Shown here: piece by piece, positions 9,755-20,776 of the stretch
How the letters are laid out: each line of letters starts with the position of its first letter
Numbering within the stretch: the stretch's first letter is position 1
Virus record (IMG/VR): IMGVR_UViG_3300033144_005184
Span: 1-20,776 of that record
Source of the DNA: a virus
Direction: 5' to 3' (one strand)
Length of the DNA: 20,776 nt
Translations under genes and position numbers: made by a program
The notes under the pieces: model-generated
Told to the model about the DNA's origin: nothing
Seen by the model: only the letters and a program-made list of their open reading frames with translations
The model's database searches: none

Positions 9755-10858
9755 TTATAAAGGATCAGCTGCAGCAGTTTGTAGCTGCATGACACCGAAG
9801 TCTTTACCGTTAAATACACTCTTCTTGATGCCGAAGATACTAGAAGTCGTGATAACTACTTGGTTACCACGATCTTCCATTTCTTCGTTCCAGTCAAAGC
9901 GCATGCCTGTACCAGCAGATCCGAAAGCACATACAGCAGCCTGCTCACCTAAGAACAACGCACGAGCCGAAGCTACTGTGTCGATCGTATCTAAGATAAT
10001 AGACTTATGGGTATGTAGTACAACGTTGTTGTACATGCCCAAGGAGCCTCTAAAGATAGGATTCTTACGCCCCTCTGCAGCCGCCGCAGCTTTCTGAATA
10101 TCGATCCACTCGTTGCCTGTACTAGCGCTCGTACGTAAATCATATTCTTGCCATGGGTTCATAACCACAACGAAGTGCTCTTCACCATCAACCATGATTG
10201 GCTGGATCTGAGGAGTACCCTGCGTACCGCCGCCCATCATAGTAGCTCGTGCGATAGCGCGATCTAACAATGCTAAGTCGAAAGTGTCGTCAGCAGCGAT
10301 AGTACCATCATTGCCGCCAGCGCCAGCGCTAGACTTTAAGACGTGCTCTGCGTCAGATGCTGTGAAGGCATTCTGAGCTCGGCCTTGGTACCCTAATGGG
10401 AACAAGTAATCTGAGTTCAACCCTCGAGTACCTGATAGATACATGAAGAATTGCTCGTCGAACATACGCGCCCACCATTCAGACTGTCTAGCTTTCGCTA
10501 CAGCTCTTAAATCGTGAAGAGTACGCTTGCGTGACATCTTGCCGCCTGTGTTAACACCGGCACGAGCTTGGTCGATAAAGATTTGGTCTGTGTAGAACGC
10601 TAAATCTTCCTCATTACCACGCAGCACTTTGTCACCCTCGATGGGTGCCATTTTCAACTGCAAGCTTAAGTCGTACGAGATGTTATCACCAGCATCGTTT
10701 TCAAGATGTGACAATAATTGGATTGGTGTAGATGATTTAGAACCTACGCCCATGAACTTCTTATTGAAGTACGATTTACGAGCTGTGTCTACAGCTAGAT
10801 CGCCACTCCATTTTTTGACCGCTTTTGGGTCATTAATTCCGATGACAGTTTGTGCCAT
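9755..10858 (-). CDS. Major capsid protein, N4-gp56/DUF4043 family (367 aa)
   Basis: The 367-aa product forms the icosahedral shell. It matches the N4-gp56/DUF4043 coat pattern: an N-terminal ..KKWS.DLAVDTARKSYF segment, then GDNISYDLSLQL...PIEGDKVLRGNEEDL.FYTDQI.IDQAR.GV and KMSRKRTLHDLR..AK..Q..WWARM.D, ending with a strand-rich C-terminus (ALFLGEQAAVCAFGS). This is a HK97-fold coat lineage. It starts at ATG 10858 with an AGAGG site eight bases upstream and sits directly after scaffold and CsrA-like genes, with a 93-base leader that contains a hairpin, the longest gap in the operon, suggesting separate control of this highly expressed gene. Confidence 0.92.
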   Translation of the reverse strand: MAQTVIGINDPKAVKKWSGDLAVDTARKSYFNKKFMGVGSKSSTPIQLLSHLENDAGDNISYDLSLQLKMAPIEGDKVLRGNEEDLAFYTDQIFIDQARAGVNTGGKMSRKRTLHDLRAVAKARQSEWWARMFDEQFFMYLSGTRGLNSDYLFPLGYQGRAQNAFTASDAEHVLKSSAGAGGNDGTIAADDTFDLALLDRAIARATMMGGGTQGTPQIQPIMVDGEEHFVVVMNPWQEYDLRTSASTGNEWIDIQKAAAAAEGRKNPIFRGSLGMYNNVVLHTHKSIILDTIDTVASARALFLGEQAAVCAFGSAGTGMRFDWNEEMEDRGNQVVITTSSIFGIKKSVFNGKDFGVMQLQTAAADPL

Positions 10859-10920
10859 GAGTAATACCTCTATAGTTAAATAGTTATTTCGGTAGCACTC
10901 TAGCGCTTACTTCAAATTGT

Positions 10921-10940
10921 CAGGGCTATCCAGAGCCCTG
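10921..10940 (-). promoter_or_regulatory. Leader hairpin with GGA in its loop, upstream of the capsid gene
   Basis: The minus-strand transcript reads CAGGGCTCTGGATAGCCCTG: a perfect 7-bp stem (CAGGGCT/AGCCCTG) closing a 6-base loop CTGGAT. It lies 11 bases after the CsrA-like stop and 62 bases before the capsid ATG. CsrA-type proteins recognise GGA presented in hairpin loops, so this may be a binding site for the product of the adjacent gene. A weak terminator is the alternative, but the following bases (ACAATTTGAAG) are not a T-tract. Confidence 0.5.
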
Positions 10941-10951
10941 ACGATAGTATA

Positions 10952-11131
10952 TCACTTAGGTTTACGCAGTGATAATGTTTTGTCATTAATATCGGCTAAT
11001 CTATGCTTTATTATGATCTCGGGGTCGGCATCTATCCTTAACTGAGCCTTCTTACCCGACTTACGGGTAAGAGTAACCGTTACATCCCCGATAATAAGAG
11101 TGTCTGTTACCCCTATATCTATATACAGCAT
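10952..11131 (-). CDS. CsrA/RsmA-like RNA-binding regulator (59 aa)
   Basis: This 59-aa frame starts at ATG 11131, immediately after the scaffold TAG, with GGGGGA as ribosome-binding site, and ends with TGA at 10954-10952. The peptide aligns along nearly its whole length with bacterial CsrA: DTLIIGDVTVTL matches the ETLMIGD.VTVTV segment, then AQLRIDADPEI matches QVRIGVNAPKE, and IIKHR matches VSVHRE. CsrA is a homodimeric five-stranded RNA-binding protein of about 61 aa that controls translation and stability of mRNAs carrying GGA motifs. The C-terminal H-R pair (residues 44-45), central to RNA contact, is kept, while the usual R6-R7 pair of strand 1 is replaced by I6-G7; the strand 2-3 loop is instead very basic (TRKSGKK). 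It may therefore bind RNA with altered specificity. Its place between scaffold and capsid suggests control of morphogenesis gene expression. Confidence 0.8.
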   Translation of the reverse strand: MLYIDIGVTDTLIIGDVTVTLTRKSGKKAQLRIDADPEIIIKHRLADINDKTLSLRKPK

Positions 11132-12094
11132 CTAATCCCCCATGAATCTTTCTCGGGTATCCTCTGACATCTTAGCGATGGCGCCCTCATAAGCTAGCCC
11201 GGATAGATTGTCCATATACGCGAACTCCCCATCATCACTATTGGTATCGGCCGCAGGGACGTTAGACAGGGACTTAGGGATCTTAGGATCCTTGCTACCC
11301 CTCTTACGCTGCTTGTCCTGAGCAGCCTTAAGCTTCATGGCCTCAACAACCTTCTTAGTCTCGGCTGCATCGACATTAGGGGAAGAGCGCCCAAACTTAG
11401 CATCTAGCGTACGGCCCGCTTCCTGCAAGAACCATAATCCGCTCTTCCCGAAGTTCTTCTCATCAGCGTACAGTTGCTCTAGCTGAGCGCCAAGCGCCCC
11501 GCGCATAATGGGGTCGGCACGATACACATCGTTATCCACATAGAACATATTCTGCTCCATCTCCCACTTCTGCTCAGCCGACTGCTTAGAGTGGTTAGCC
11601 GCTATCTTCTCTTCTAAGATAGCCTCACTAATACCCTGCTTAGCATTATCAAAGGTTTTAGTCAGTGCGCGGTCTTCCTTACGATAGGCTGAGAAGCTAG
11701 TCTCGCCCTCTTCGTACTTAGCCGCTAAAGCCTCGGATGCAGTCTCATACTCCGTAGTCATAGTTTCCAGCTGATCAGCTAGCCCTTCTGTACTACTGGC
11801 TTGGAAATGCGGAGCAAACGTTGCCCCTACCTCTCCTGCTGCCTCTGGAGCTGGATCCTCATTAGGAGCTTCGTCCACTGTATCCTCAACAACCTCACCA
11901 TCATCCGAAGTCTCCAGACTCTCAGCTTCAGGAGCTGGATCCTCAGCATCACCACCTGTAGGTTCGCCCCCTGTGTCTTCTCCATCTGTGGACTCCTCTT
12001 CATCGTCACCTTTAACAGCCTGTAGCTCTTCTTCCGTAAGACCTAGTGTTTCTAGGTCGTCGTCTTGTGCTACTACTTCATCATGTATACTCAT
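11132..12094 (-). CDS. Putative capsid scaffold protein (320 aa)
   Basis: The 320-aa protein lies between portal and capsid genes, the standard scaffold position. Residues 1-90 are extremely acidic and low in complexity (D/E/G/P/T-rich), the middle (about 100-250) is predicted mostly helical with coiled-coil character (LADQLETMTTEYETASEALAAKYEEGE), and a basic patch KAAQDKQRKRGSKDPKIPK follows near residue 265. Acidic disorder plus helices plus a basic capsid-binding segment is how P22- and other internal scaffolds look. It starts at ATG 12094 with GAGGG four bases upstream and ends flush against the CsrA-like gene. No protease motif is visible. Confidence 0.75.
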   Translation of the reverse strand: MSIHDEVVAQDDDLETLGLTEEELQAVKGDDEEESTDGEDTGGEPTGGDAEDPAPEAESLETSDDGEVVEDTVDEAPNEDPAPEAAGEVGATFAPHFQASSTEGLADQLETMTTEYETASEALAAKYEEGETSFSAYRKEDRALTKTFDNAKQGISEAILEEKIAANHSKQSAEQKWEMEQNMFYVDNDVYRADPIMRGALGAQLEQLYADEKNFGKSGLWFLQEAGRTLDAKFGRSSPNVDAAETKKVVEAMKLKAAQDKQRKRGSKDPKIPKSLSNVPAADTNSDDGEFAYMDNLSGLAYEGAIAKMSEDTRERFMGD

Positions 12095-12120
12095 ATCGCC
12101 CTCTTGCGCGTTGTTATAAA

Positions 12121-16923: not shown

Positions 16924-17391
16924 CTATGCACCTGTGTGTCCAAACCCGCCGCGCCCGTTGTCATCCATGGAGCTAACCATCTTGATATCGGGGCGTATGA
17001 CCTCAGAGAACTTCAACTGGGCAATACGCCTGCCCGCCGAGATTTGTACAGGCTCACCCTCAGTGCTCCTGTTAACCAGCGGTACGAAGATCTCCTTGTG
17101 GTAGTCACTATCGATCAAGCCTACCCCAATCTTAACGTTCACGTCCTCTCTATACCCTAAGCCACTACGGCTCATAACCTCTGCACACATGTGTTTCGGC
17201 ATACGCACGGCGATACCAGTAGGCATCAGGTGGGTTTGCCCAGGGTATAACATAACTGACTCGGTAGCCTGTAGATCCATAGCAGCTGCACCCTCAGTGG
17301 CGTAGTCCGGCGCTCCCACAGCGTGTGGAAACATCCTCATCTCCACTGAATCAGGCGAATCACTACGTGATCCACCCAATCCCCTGTCCAT
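16924..17391 (-). CDS. dut: Deoxyuridine 5'-triphosphate nucleotidohydrolase (dUTPase)
   Basis: The enzyme hydrolyses dUTP to dUMP and pyrophosphate, keeping uracil out of phage DNA and feeding dTMP synthesis. All five trimeric-dUTPase motifs are present, numbered from ATG 17391 (155 aa): GAAAMDL (34-40), SRSGLGY (74-80), GVGLIDSDYHKE (89-100, catalytic D96), GRRIAQL (120-126) and GRGGFGHTG (146-154). The gene sits between small and large terminase. The start is uncertain: ATG 17433 would overlap the previous gene by 32 bases, and ATG 17340 or 17334 (a GGAG site precedes the latter) would cut into the first strand. Residues 3-15 (RGLGGSRSDSPDS) come from an interspersed DNA repeat and are not part of the normal dUTPase fold. 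Confidence 0.94.
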   Translation of the reverse strand: MDRGLGGSRSDSPDSVEMRMFPHAVGAPDYATEGAAAMDLQATESVMLYPGQTHLMPTGIAVRMPKHMCAEVMSRSGLGYREDVNVKIGVGLIDSDYHKEIFVPLVNRSTEGEPVQISAGRRIAQLKFSEVIRPDIKMVSSMDDNGRGGFGHTGA

Positions 17392-17394
17392 GTT
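17347..17394. repeat. Coding interspersed repeat, copy C (inside dUTPase 5' end)
   Basis: Copy C of a ~45-bp repeat. The 33 bases 17352-17384 are identical to those at 17830-17862 (copy A), and both ends extend with few mismatches to an ATGTT motif on the plus strand. On the coding strand it contains the hairpin GGATCAC-GTA-GTGATTC and encodes GLGGSRSDSPDS. It covers the ATG at 17391 proposed here as dUTPase start. Confidence 0.85.
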
Positions 17395-17401
17395 CTCTAT
17401 G

Positions 17402-17806: not shown

Positions 17807-18109
17807 CTAACTAGTGTTTTTCGGTGAACCAGGCGAATCACTACGTGATCCACCCAATCCCCCGTTAATGTTCTTAGCGTACGTTTGTCCTAGTACAGTG
17901 CATCTATGGCCATAGGCTGTGATAGCCATGGCCATGGCTTTAGCGATTAAGCGCTGGTCCTCTCGGCCGCCAGCTCCAGAGGCTAATAGTCCATTAAGGA
18001 TCACCTTGAAGTAGTCGTCGATAGCTTTGTTTTGGGGGATGTTGCTAGTGTTTTTCGCCGAATCACTATGTGATCCGACCTTAATGTTTGACTTGGTGCT
18101 TTCGCTCAT
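17807..18109 (-). CDS. Hypothetical protein flanked by repeat-encoded segments (100 aa)
   Basis: A 100-aa protein starting at ATG 18109 and ending with TAG at 17809-17807. Its middle (residues about 26-79, KAIDDYFKVILNGLLASGAGGREDQRLIAKAMAMAITAYGHR) is helical and could be a small DNA-binding or dimerisation domain. Both ends are made of repeat-derived sequence: residues about 8-22 (NIKVGSHSDSAKNTS) from copy B and 80-100 (NINGGLGGSRSDSPGSPKNTS) from copy A. It is in frame with the following small-terminase-like gene, separated by one TAG. The upstream site is weak (AGAGA). It may be the N-terminal half of the small terminase or an independent protein; no family was recognised. Confidence 0.6.
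   Translation of the reverse strand: MSESTKSNIKVGSHSDSAKNTSNIPQNKAIDDYFKVILNGLLASGAGGREDQRLIAKAMAMAITAYGHRCTVLGQTYAKNINGGLGGSRSDSPGSPKNTS
17811..17872. repeat. Coding interspersed repeat, copy A
   Basis: Copy A lies at the 3' end of the 100-aa gene. Bases 17830-17862 are identical to copy C in dUTPase, and the flank CTAGTGTTTTTCG (17811-17823) is identical to the flank of copy B at 18045-18057. On the coding strand it contains the hairpin GGATCAC-GTA-GTGATTC and encodes GGLGGSRSDSPGS plus KNTS. Confidence 0.85.
18045..18088. repeat. Coding interspersed repeat, copy B (shorter)
   Basis: Copy B lies at the 5' end of the 100-aa gene. It has the flank CTAGTGTTTTTCG shared with copy A and the same stem-loop core with one loop change, GGATCAC-ATA-GTGATTC, followed by TTAATGTT as in copy A, but lacks the ~10-bp segments on either side of the core. 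It encodes GSHSDSAKNTS. Confidence 0.75.
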
Positions 18110-19083: not shown

Positions 19084-19344
19084 ATGAACAACACGAAAGA
19101 AGTATTTGCAATATTACAGATGGCCCAATTTGTTGGGGTAACTCTCTCGAAAGAGGAGCTTGTGGCGGCGCATGACAAAGGTGTGTGGGGCCAAGTAATC
19201 TCGGACCACTTGTGGGACGTCGTGGCTGATTCCTATGAGTTCGCAGTTGTGCATGAGGCAAACCTTGCAGAGCTCGTGGCCGACCTAGAATCGCCAGAGC
19301 CTTTTGACCCTGATTTTTTCGGCGATGACGAAATCCCGTTCTAG
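19084..19344 (+). CDS. Small acidic protein with SSB-like C-terminal tip (86 aa)
   Basis: This 86-aa protein begins at ATG 19084 with GGAG seven bases upstream. Residues 4-65 look helical (NTKEVFAILQMAQFVGV, KEELVAAHD, SYEFAVVHEANLAELVADL). The last residues, PFDPDFFGDDEIPF, copy the conserved acidic tip of bacterial single-stranded DNA-binding protein (consensus DDDIPF), which docks onto SSB partners such as exonuclease I, RecQ, PriA and RecO. The body is too short and of the wrong pattern for an OB fold, so it is not an SSB. It could recruit or block host SSB partners; that function is an inference. It is first in a rightward cluster of small genes and ends at the start of a 54-base repeat that includes its stop codon. 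Confidence 0.75.
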   Translation: MNNTKEVFAILQMAQFVGVTLSKEELVAAHDKGVWGQVISDHLWDVVADSYEFAVVHEANLAELVADLESPEPFDPDFFGDDEIPF

Positions 19345-19390
19345 TAACAACTAAGCTCCTGCCAGGCCTGGCAGGAGCAATCATAGGAGA
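19337..19390 (+). repeat. Cassette header, copy 1 (54-bp exact repeat with 24-bp palindrome)
   Basis: These 54 bases recur exactly at 20308-20361. They start with CGTTCTAG (containing a gene stop codon), continue with TAACAACTAAG and a perfect 24-bp palindrome (19355-19378, half GCTCCTGCCAGG), and end with ATCATAGGAGA, a ribosome-binding site. Here no start codon follows the AGGAG, so the header is an orphan. Confidence 0.9.
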
Positions 19391-19398
19391 ATAACCTG

Positions 19399-19447
19399 TA
19401 ACAACAACTAAGCCCCTGCCTGCCTGGCGGGGGCTTAGTTGTTGTTA
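19399..19447. repeat. 49-nt near-perfect stem-loop
   Basis: Arms 19399-19420 and 19426-19447 are 22 bases each and complementary except for one T-G pair, with the loop TGCCT. The arms contain the header element AACAACTAAGCCCCTG in opposite orientations, so the structure looks like two half-headers joined head to head. There is no T-tract on either side. It could stop transcription from both directions or be a protein-binding site. Confidence 0.85.
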
Positions 19448-19457
19448 GAGCGAAAGT

Positions 19458-19938: not shown

Positions 19939-19957
19939 AGCCCCGAGGCTTCCTTCT
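19926..19957 (+). terminator. Terminator-like stem-loop, copy 3, overlapping a stop codon
   Basis: AAGCCTCGG (19926-19934) pairs perfectly with CCGAGGCTT (19943-19951), followed by CCTTCT. The TAG stop of the 112-aa gene (19936-19938) is in the loop. The 3' flank GACAACAACTAAG leads straight into the next cassette header. Confidence 0.65.
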
Positions 19958-19959
19958 GA

Positions 19960-20001
19960 CAACAACTAAGCCCCTGCATTTCGTAGGGGCATCATAGGAG
20001 A
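19960..20001 (+). repeat. Cassette header, copy 2
   Basis: This header has ACAACTAAG, then a stem-loop GCCCCTGC-ATTTC-GTAGGGGC (19970-19990, one G-T pair), then ATCATAGGAGA and the ATG at 20007. The loop differs from other copies while the stem is retained. Confidence 0.75.
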
Positions 20002-20006
20002 AATGT

Positions 20007-20315
20007 ATGGGTATTTTCACTGCGGTTAAACAGTTGGTCTTCGGTGGCCAACGTCTGGTCATATCAACAGACCAGCTGGAGTTCTCCAATATTAAGCCCC
20101 TCGTAGAACGAGTGGATTGGGGTTCTCTACGTGACCACGCCATAGGAGCCTGCTACTTAGCAGCCTGCTACTTAGCAGGTCGTGGCATCGACATGTTGAT
20201 GGTCGCGTACCCTCCGCTGTACTGGGGGATTGTATGTCTAAACATACTCACTATCGTGGTATTTACAACGGTGTATTTGAGGAATACATCGGGGTATGCA
20301 GCGGGAGCGTTCTAG
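20007..20315 (+). CDS. Hypothetical small membrane protein (102 aa)
   Basis: The 102-aa protein starts at ATG 20007, six bases after AGGAG; another ATG four bases earlier opens only an 8-codon frame. The N-terminal half is soluble-looking (FTAVKQLVFGGQRLVISTDQLEF), and the C-terminal half is hydrophobic with one clear membrane segment (about residues 72-92, YWGIVCLNILTIVVFTTVYL) and a possible second around ACYLAACYLAG. A 15-bp tandem duplication (20148-20177) creates the ACYLAACYLA repeat. No family was recognised. Small membrane proteins in early phage regions often act in host takeover or superinfection exclusion, but nothing specific shows it here. Confidence 0.7.
   Translation: MGIFTAVKQLVFGGQRLVISTDQLEFSNIKPLVERVDWGSLRDHAIGACYLAACYLAGRGIDMLMVAYPPLYWGIVCLNILTIVVFTTVYLRNTSGYAAGAF
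20148..20177 (+). repeat. 15-bp tandem duplication inside the membrane-protein gene
   Basis: GCCTGCTACTTAGCA is repeated exactly twice without a gap, adding five codons (ACYLA) in frame. Each unit also contains a short stem CTGC/GCAG, so replication slippage is a probable cause. Confidence 0.9.
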
Positions 20316-20361
20316 TAACAACTAAGCTCCTGCCAGGCCTGGCAGGAGCAATCATAGGAGA
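20308..20361 (+). repeat. Cassette header, copy 3 (54-bp exact repeat)
   Basis: It is identical to 19337-19390, including the preceding gene's stop codon and the 24-bp palindrome (20326-20349). Here the AGGAG is followed six bases later by the ATG at 20367, so this copy is functional as a gene header. Confidence 0.9.
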
Positions 20362-20366
20362 GATGT

Positions 20367-20606
20367 ATGAGTAAAATGGGAAATCACGTAATCGCGAAAT
20401 ACGAGTCACAGGACACAACAGGCCTAACACGCCACGTTGATGCGCTAGCTCGGGAGCTTGAAGAAGCTGCTGAGCTGGAGAGGTTAGCAGAGCTAACCTA
20501 TAAGCTCGCGCTCACAAAGTGCGACAGTTTTGAATTGAACGAGGACTTGTTCCACTGCGATGACATGGAAGCCATCATAGTATGCCTACGCGCGTACTTC
20601 AAATAG
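20367..20606 (+). CDS. Hypothetical small acidic helical protein (79 aa)
   Basis: The 79-aa product starts at ATG 20367, six bases after AGGAG; an overlapping ATG at 20363 opens a three-codon frame only. Residues 20-50 form a probable amphipathic or coiled-coil helix (LTRHVDALARELEEAAELERLAELTYKLALTK), and the C-terminal part is acidic (ELNEDLFHCDDMEAI). No family was recognised. The helix could mediate binding to a host or phage protein. It is the fourth gene in the rightward cassette array. Confidence 0.72.
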   Translation: MSKMGNHVIAKYESQDTTGLTRHVDALARELEEAAELERLAELTYKLALTKCDSFELNEDLFHCDDMEAIIVCLRAYFK

Positions 20607-20608
20607 CA

Positions 20609-20656
20609 GTAACACCCACAAGCCCCTGCCTGCCTGGCAGGGGCATCATAGGAGAA
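20609..20656 (+). repeat. Cassette header, copy 4
   Basis: This header has TAACACCCACAAG (a diverged form of TAACAACTAAG), then a perfect stem-loop GCCCCTGCC-TGCCT-GGCAGGGGC (20622-20644) and CATCATAGGAGAA ahead of the ATG at 20661. The loop TGCCT is the same as in the 49-nt stem-loop at 19399-19447. Confidence 0.8.
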
Positions 20657-20660
20657 TAAT

Positions 20661-20776
20661 ATGTTGAACAAAACACAAGCGTTACGAACTTTAAACACAT
20701 CCACATTCACTACAGTGAATGTGGAAGGACGCATCGCGATAAGACGCGAAAAAGACGGCAGCTATGCCGTTAGCGA
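20661..20776 (+). CDS. Hypothetical protein, partial (3' end beyond window)
   Basis: ATG at 20661 follows AGGAG with a six-base spacer and opens a frame that stays open to the right edge (38 codons, MLNKTQALRTLNTSTF...). The visible part is basic with a beta-like stretch (TFTTVNVEGRIAIRREKDGSYAV) suggesting a small beta domain. A perfect 11-bp inverted repeat with loop TACA (20700-20725) lies within the first 22 codons and would form a stable hairpin in the mRNA. No family was recognised. Confidence 0.6.
   Translation, partial: MLNKTQALRTLNTSTFTTVNVEGRIAIRREKDGSYAVS

Follow-up and report, generated by a model that had tools for sequence, protein, structure and literature searches.

By computation we found a family of CsrA-like phage proteins, a conserved bistable RNA in the leader of the neighboring capsid gene, further copies of this RNA ahead of other late genes, and the joint occurrence of the RNA and the gene for the protein. 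The CsrA-family protein probably acts in trans as a translational regulator of late genes and opens the capsid leader via a hairpin that we term S1; we infer the direction of this control and its timing. The window that was analyzed is a virus record of 20,776 bases, and its features are collected in Table 1.

A gene for a CsrA-like protein lies between the probable scaffold and capsid genes

The original prediction placed a frame of 59 residues between a scaffold-type gene and the capsid gene. This frame is real and lies on the minus strand, which had not been specified, with an ATG start and a TGA stop. As claimed, its spacing is that of an operon: the stop codon TAG (11132-11134) of the upstream gene directly abuts the ATG, and GGGGGA stands at Shine-Dalgarno distance. 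The product of the upstream phrog_8246 gene is acidic and has 320 residues, and its position and composition make a scaffold identity plausible. A portal gene lies further upstream in the window (P22 portal, E 2.3e-171), and the capsid gene is located 93 nt downstream. IMG/VR copies of the frame at the same place are 100%, 77%, and 68% identical. The frame had been described as hidden, which holds for this contig but not for the family, already annotated in isolates as "CsrA-like regulator."

Table 1. Features of the window around the CsrA-like gene
Feature	Position	Strand	Evidence or remark
Major capsid protein gene, PF13252, proposed regulated gene	9755..10858	-	E 1.1e-55
S2 3' arm GGUAUUACUC, takes in part of the capsid Shine-Dalgarno and runs up to the ATG	10859..10868	-
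Leader between CsrA-like and capsid genes, 93 nt	10859..10951	-	folding z about -2.6
Capsid gene Shine-Dalgarno AGAGG	10867..10871	-
S2 5' arm GAGUGCUACC, overlaps loop end and 3' half of S1	10891..10900	-	covarying alternative pairing
S1 hairpin GCGC-UAGA-GUGC, proposed recognition element	10895..10906	-	S1 in 59/59 leaders
Upstream hairpin, 9-bp stem, hexaloop CUGGAU, sequence not conserved; possible second site	10919..10942	-
CsrA-like protein gene, 59 aa	10952..11131	-	PHROG 8397, family profile, AlphaFold model
phrog_8246 gene, probable scaffold, directly upstream of CsrA-like gene	11132..12094	-
GGGGGA, Shine-Dalgarno of CsrA-like gene, within end of upstream gene	11136..11141	-
Degenerate S1-like GCGCAAGAGGGC over the probable scaffold Shine-Dalgarno	12098..12109	-	one mismatch, stem broken

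The protein has a predicted CsrA fold

The window protein matched PHROG 8397, "CsrA-like regulator," at E 9.7e-12, and this profile match together with the gene order upstream of the capsid gene places it in that family. Against the Pfam CsrA profile (PF02599), it gave a match at E 0.0021 but, at 18.4 bits, scored below the curated 27-bit cut-off; we therefore call it CsrA-like and not a PF02599 member by the curated rule. The likeness, which had been predicted over the whole length, is above chance but confined to residues 1 to about 44-47. PF02599 was matched at E 0.01 or better by 28 of 44 relatives, and a profile built from these 44 matched RsmE 2jpp (E 2.7e-8) as well as other CsrA chains. 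An AlphaFold model of the monomer, computed from an input alignment of 38 sequences, had five strands and a pLDDT of 86.6. Consistent with the fold that had been proposed, Foldseek ranks 1-14 in the PDB were all CsrA/Rsm (rmsd 0.7-1.7 Å, probability 0.99-1.00, E-values 0.03-0.3), the individual E-values being modest because the protein is short. We consider the assignment of the CsrA fold secure, and the description of the protein as CsrA-like is supported by the profile, the predicted fold, and the relatives. The protein presumably forms a homodimer and presumably binds RNA.

L4 and R44 have been described as critical residues of CsrA (PMC7652899). In the relatives, the L4 column is hydrophobic in nearly all, and the R44 column holds R in 12/44 and K in 7/44. 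The HR near residue 45, said to be kept, is present in the window, with a one-residue alignment ambiguity in the R44 region, but reads RHQ and EHR in the close relatives L004 and L003. The replacement of the strand-1 arginines is general for R6 (hydrophobic in 44/44) but not for R7, which is G in the window and R or K in 34/44 relatives. A lysine replaces V25 in 42/44. A C-terminal tail, A..xG(L/I/V), is common to many of the relatives and absent from the window protein; it is a possible interaction motif.

The gene is conserved in related phages

The family is annotated, with the same gene order, in phages of Burkholderia, Klebsiella, Erwinia, Pseudomonas, and Serratia. The PHROG 8397 members BcepIL02 gp49, JC1 gp47, LASTA gp20, and Pavtok gp09 belong to the same family as the window protein, and members in Bcep22-like phages occupy the same place, between the portal/scaffold-type gene and the capsid gene. 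Taken alone, the protein is ordinary, since Bcep22-like phages are known to carry its family. The family is included in a listing of phage CsrA homologues (PMC7366521), and in earlier work, in which the JC1 homologue was termed a moron gene, it had no assigned role (PMC9144972); here, it is linked to a candidate RNA element. In openly licensed PMC papers, we found neither a target RNA or leader element for PHROG 8397 nor an earlier report of the RNA element itself, although such a report may exist. Thus, the protein family is known, and the RNA hairpin switch found with it is apparently unreported.

Using the capsid protein as bait, we collected 80 IMG/VR loci, or 86 loci counting isolates. 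The frame was present upstream of the capsid gene in 79/86, and the loci without it include contig ends and inserted genes (two homing-endonuclease-like). Given this conservation at the same place, the gene behaves as a core gene of the head module and not as cargo. Phage 8P carries it in another context, beside a phrog_644 gene preceded by an S1 element. In Atu_ph08 and PBC5, about 27-30 kb separate the capsid gene from the regulator, which lies with portal and scaffold-type genes; the two are encoded on opposite strands, and S1 is retained in the capsid leader of each phage. In L067 and L068, homing-endonuclease-like frames lie between the usual site of the CsrA-like gene and the capsid gene, and the S1 hairpin still adjoins the capsid start, with a TGTA loop in L068.

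The capsid leader can adopt two alternative structures

We compared 59 unique capsid leaders, in which the gap between the two genes is 53 to 163 nt. The mean folding z was -2.5, compared with -0.3 and -1.1 in controls. Reading the folds gave the consensus of S1: GCGC, a 4- or 5-nt loop that is mostly ANGA, and GUGC. All 59 leaders contain S1 with a score ≥9, located 32-58 nt ahead of the start codon, and 44/59 reach a score of 11; with leaders excluded, 2.2% of the other segments in the same loci score 9 or more and 0.075% score 11. Because the scoring was devised after the leaders had been seen, these figures describe the element and do not test it. Loops with GGA (AGGA, UGGA) are a minority, and most S1 loops are without it. 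Several relatives have a second ANGA hairpin near the position of the upstream hairpin of the window. We rejected the CUGGAU hexaloop hairpin as a conserved CsrA site: it is missing from L003 and the isolates, and the loop differs in L004. An Rfam covariance-model search matched the leader neither in the window nor in any of ten other loci.

The loop and 3' half of S1 are also able to pair with the Shine-Dalgarno/start codon region, forming a structure that we term S2; examples are GGAUGUGC/GCACAUCC in BcepIL02, GGAAGUGC/GCACUUCC in L047, and CAUGAGUGC/GCACUCAUG in L022. Among 42 representatives with CsrA-like proteins <65% identical, a phage's own S2 pairing had a mean of -12.8 kcal/mol, compared with -9.3 +/- 0.35 when partners were swapped between phages, a difference that 0/20,000 shuffles reached. 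The window S2 is modest (own -11.4 versus swaps -9.2). The S2 pairing stood out in the leaders of other genes as well (0/5,000). For the outer pairs of S1, a similar test yielded 1.81 versus 0.70 +/- 0.16 (0/20,000), and the core stem has the compensated variants TCGC/GTGA and GAGC/GTTC. Thus, S1 and S2 each show compensatory changes. When S1 was enforced, the start region became more open in 57/59 leaders, its unpaired probability rising from 0.29 to 0.49 at a mean cost of 6.2 kcal/mol; for the window sequence (as L001), the segment from S1 to the start went from -15.7 to -10.7 kcal/mol and the unpaired probability from 0.30 to 0.42. Under the switch, the capsid start appears to be ATT in L032 and TTG in L077 and L078, not ATG, and a sequencing error is possible.

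S1 recurs before other late genes

In seven records (six phage genomes, with Pavtok lacking its last 1.4 kb, plus the window), the strict motif occurred 19 times, compared with 2.2 expected, and 18/19 occurrences were followed by the start of a reading frame, compared with 0.65 expected. The genes led by the motif encode capsid, endolysin, DarB-like giant proteins, a virion protein (phrog_8003), and an internal virion protein (phrog_511). The motif-bearing leaders of Pavtok and Parlo belong to annotated endolysin genes, and those of LASTA and Itty13 to genes identified as endolysins by similarity; a motif-led gene of Skulduggery is endolysin-like by inspection only. Within the window, this survey found a clear S1 in no gene leader other than that of the capsid gene. 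It is unlikely that the capsid protein exerts autogenous control, given that S1 is found ahead of endolysin, DarB-like, and other genes too.

In a second class, S1 overlaps the start site. A perfect S1, GCGCAGGAGTGC, covers the Shine-Dalgarno of the probable scaffold gene in L003 and L004, with the ATG 2-4 nt further on. A scan for S1 overlapping start sites listed the CsrA-like gene in 21/118 loci compared with 0/120 controls. In Sinorhizobium phage PBC5 (L092, NC_003324.1 961-972), an S1 motif, GCGCATGAGTGC, has the annotated integrase start (965) in its loop; if real, this would link the regulator to integration.

Four plus-strand leader cassettes in the small-gene region of the window (19337-19390, 19946-20009, 20308-20369, and 20620-20663) consist of a GC-rich hairpin, usually after AACAACTAAGC, and then ATCATAGGAGA, with the ATG directly next in three of the four; they look like a second, different recurrent leader element. 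A near-perfect 25-nt inverted repeat with a 5-nt spacer (19396-19450, -44.6 kcal/mol), which presents the same repeat in both orientations, is possibly a bidirectional terminator or a recombination scar. On the terminase side, a 50-nt repeat containing GAATCACTACGTGATCC occurs in two copies that are 92% identical (17347-17396 and 17825-17874), with a shorter third copy at 18059-18076.

The RNA element and the CsrA-like gene occur together

A scan of IMG/VR for S1 plus a start site, conducted blind to the gene, found at least 120 loci. Among the motif loci listed, 57/120 carry the CsrA-like gene, compared with 0/87 for a scrambled motif. The downstream families among the motif matches listed were capsid (38), phrog_644 (20), DarB-like (13), two endolysin-type families (7 and 3), and phrog_8123 (7). 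When long motif contigs without a CsrA-like gene nearby were searched whole, 13/13 encoded one, compared with 0/13 contigs from the control scan. Eight more distant phages that have a capsid homologue, and in which no CsrA-like gene was detected, have no good S1 in the capsid leader. The leader of Mwe-JY07 has S1, yet the profile finds no CsrA-like gene there; the candidate is an upstream frame read by eye. Most members used to build the CsrA-like profile were capsid-linked. The Fisher values of 1.9e-17 and 1.5e-7 treat related contigs as independent, and the association P values therefore overstate the case.

A proposed mechanism and its alternatives

We propose that S2, by pairing the region around the Shine-Dalgarno and start codon, would keep capsid translation low, and that S1, which uses the same nucleotides and would exclude S2, would leave the start site freer. 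The protein would most likely bind the S1 loop, stabilize S1, and prevent S2, and capsid synthesis would thereby be turned on. A single dimer may span S1 together with a second hairpin upstream. Activation via S1 is proposed because the leader layout resembles that of ymdA and because several leaders have two ANGA hairpins. At the probable scaffold gene of close relatives, where S1 lies over the Shine-Dalgarno, binding would instead repress, which may give both a shift from scaffold to capsid and autorepression. We lean slightly toward a wider reading, in which the protein would be a dedicated master regulator of a post-transcriptional late regulon whose operators are opened, or closed at the copies overlapping start sites, with assembly and lysis timed at translation and not only at transcription. 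The original prediction that the protein could adjust the relative amounts of scaffold, capsid, and downstream products thus gains indirect support, and more broadly than proposed, from the covarying switch in the capsid leader, the copies at other late genes, and the co-occurrence with the CsrA-like gene.

The main alternative is that the motif and the gene are two inherited features of one phage lineage; shared ancestry inflates the association statistics, and the eight negative relatives are distant. Counting against protein binding, the S1 loop ANGA differs from the ANGGA of CsrA, and R44, a critical residue of Escherichia coli CsrA, is R in just 12/44 and K in 7/44 relatives. The loop also changes along with the sequence of the start site, and the constraint on it may therefore come from S2 and not from a protein. 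One can picture the leader as a protein-independent RNA timer, the CsrA-like protein having another job: S1 would form first in transcription and delay S2, or ribosomes ending the upstream gene would open S2. S1 does lie 5' of the S2 partner and includes a G-U pair, and the leader closely follows a translated gene. However, the same element stands before genes with other upstream neighbors, on other transcripts, and occurs with the CsrA-like gene even when the two are far apart, and we regard such a timer as unlikely. Rather unlikely, too, is control of the opposite sign, in which the protein, by stabilizing S2 or blocking initiation, represses late genes until it has been titrated or diluted away. 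CsrA usually represses, and S1 copies over Shine-Dalgarno sequences exist, but S1 of the main class, 32-58 nt upstream of the start codon, lies outside the usual ribosome footprint, and S2 cannot form together with it.

The location of the gene in the head gene cluster, the poor conservation of R44, and the one peptide detected in purified JC1 virions (PMC9144972) would also suit a virion or head-assembly component that has co-opted the CsrA fold and has no RNA role. We consider this improbable: the JC1 authors call the peptide evidence not definitive (PMC9144972), the gene of phage 8P adjoins a phrog_644 gene, and the co-occurrence with an RNA motif that is independent of the gene would be left unexplained. 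It is very improbable that a host RNA-binding protein, such as host CsrA, is the true ligand of S1, with the phage protein competing or mimicking. Those S1 loops that contain GGA (AGGA, UGGA) do resemble host CsrA sites, but GGA is missing from most, and phages that infect Sinorhizobium and Burkholderia cenocepacia have a strong element. Both B. cenocepacia and Sinorhizobium meliloti, hosts of phages with the gene, were reported to be without a chromosomal csrA (PMC7366521), which also speaks against titration of host CsrA targets, the other role originally suggested, as the main one; for hosts without csrA, such titration is unlikely.

Relation to known regulators and significance

The binding by a CsrA-like protein that we favor has parallels in characterized systems. 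In Escherichia coli, CsrA activates ymdA by opening a hairpin that sequesters the Shine-Dalgarno, through two sites, one of them within the hairpin and the other immediately upstream (PMC7492729). The phage leaders would share this two-site layout and the structure hiding the Shine-Dalgarno; ymdA, however, is a single cellular gene with GGA sites, whereas the phage system would comprise a divergent CsrA, ANGA loops, and several late genes, with binding predicted. For RsmA/phz2 and CsrA/moaA, activation has likewise been proposed to work by preventing a structure that hides the Shine-Dalgarno (PMC7652899), but there both regulators and targets are cellular. Com of phage Mu, like the regulator proposed here, is a small RNA-binding protein that a phage encodes and that activates the translation of a gene of the phage (PMC6483171), but it is a zinc finger protein of unrelated fold with one described target (mom). 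The plasmid-encoded RsmQ, another CsrA/Rsm homologue that is carried on a mobile element and acts on translation, is described as controlling host behavior (PMC9928087), whereas the candidate targets here are the phage's own genes.

Overall, if the proposal is true, it gives a role to a phage gene family so far labeled as moron and illustrates the divergence of CsrA-type recognition beyond the network of the host. The operator, which is short and portable, could be put to use in synthetic biology as a positive switch of translation. Transcription is the usual explanation of late-gene control in tailed phages; a phage RNA-binding protein that acts in trans on an operator set of multiple genes would, if true, be the translational counterpart of transcriptional late control.
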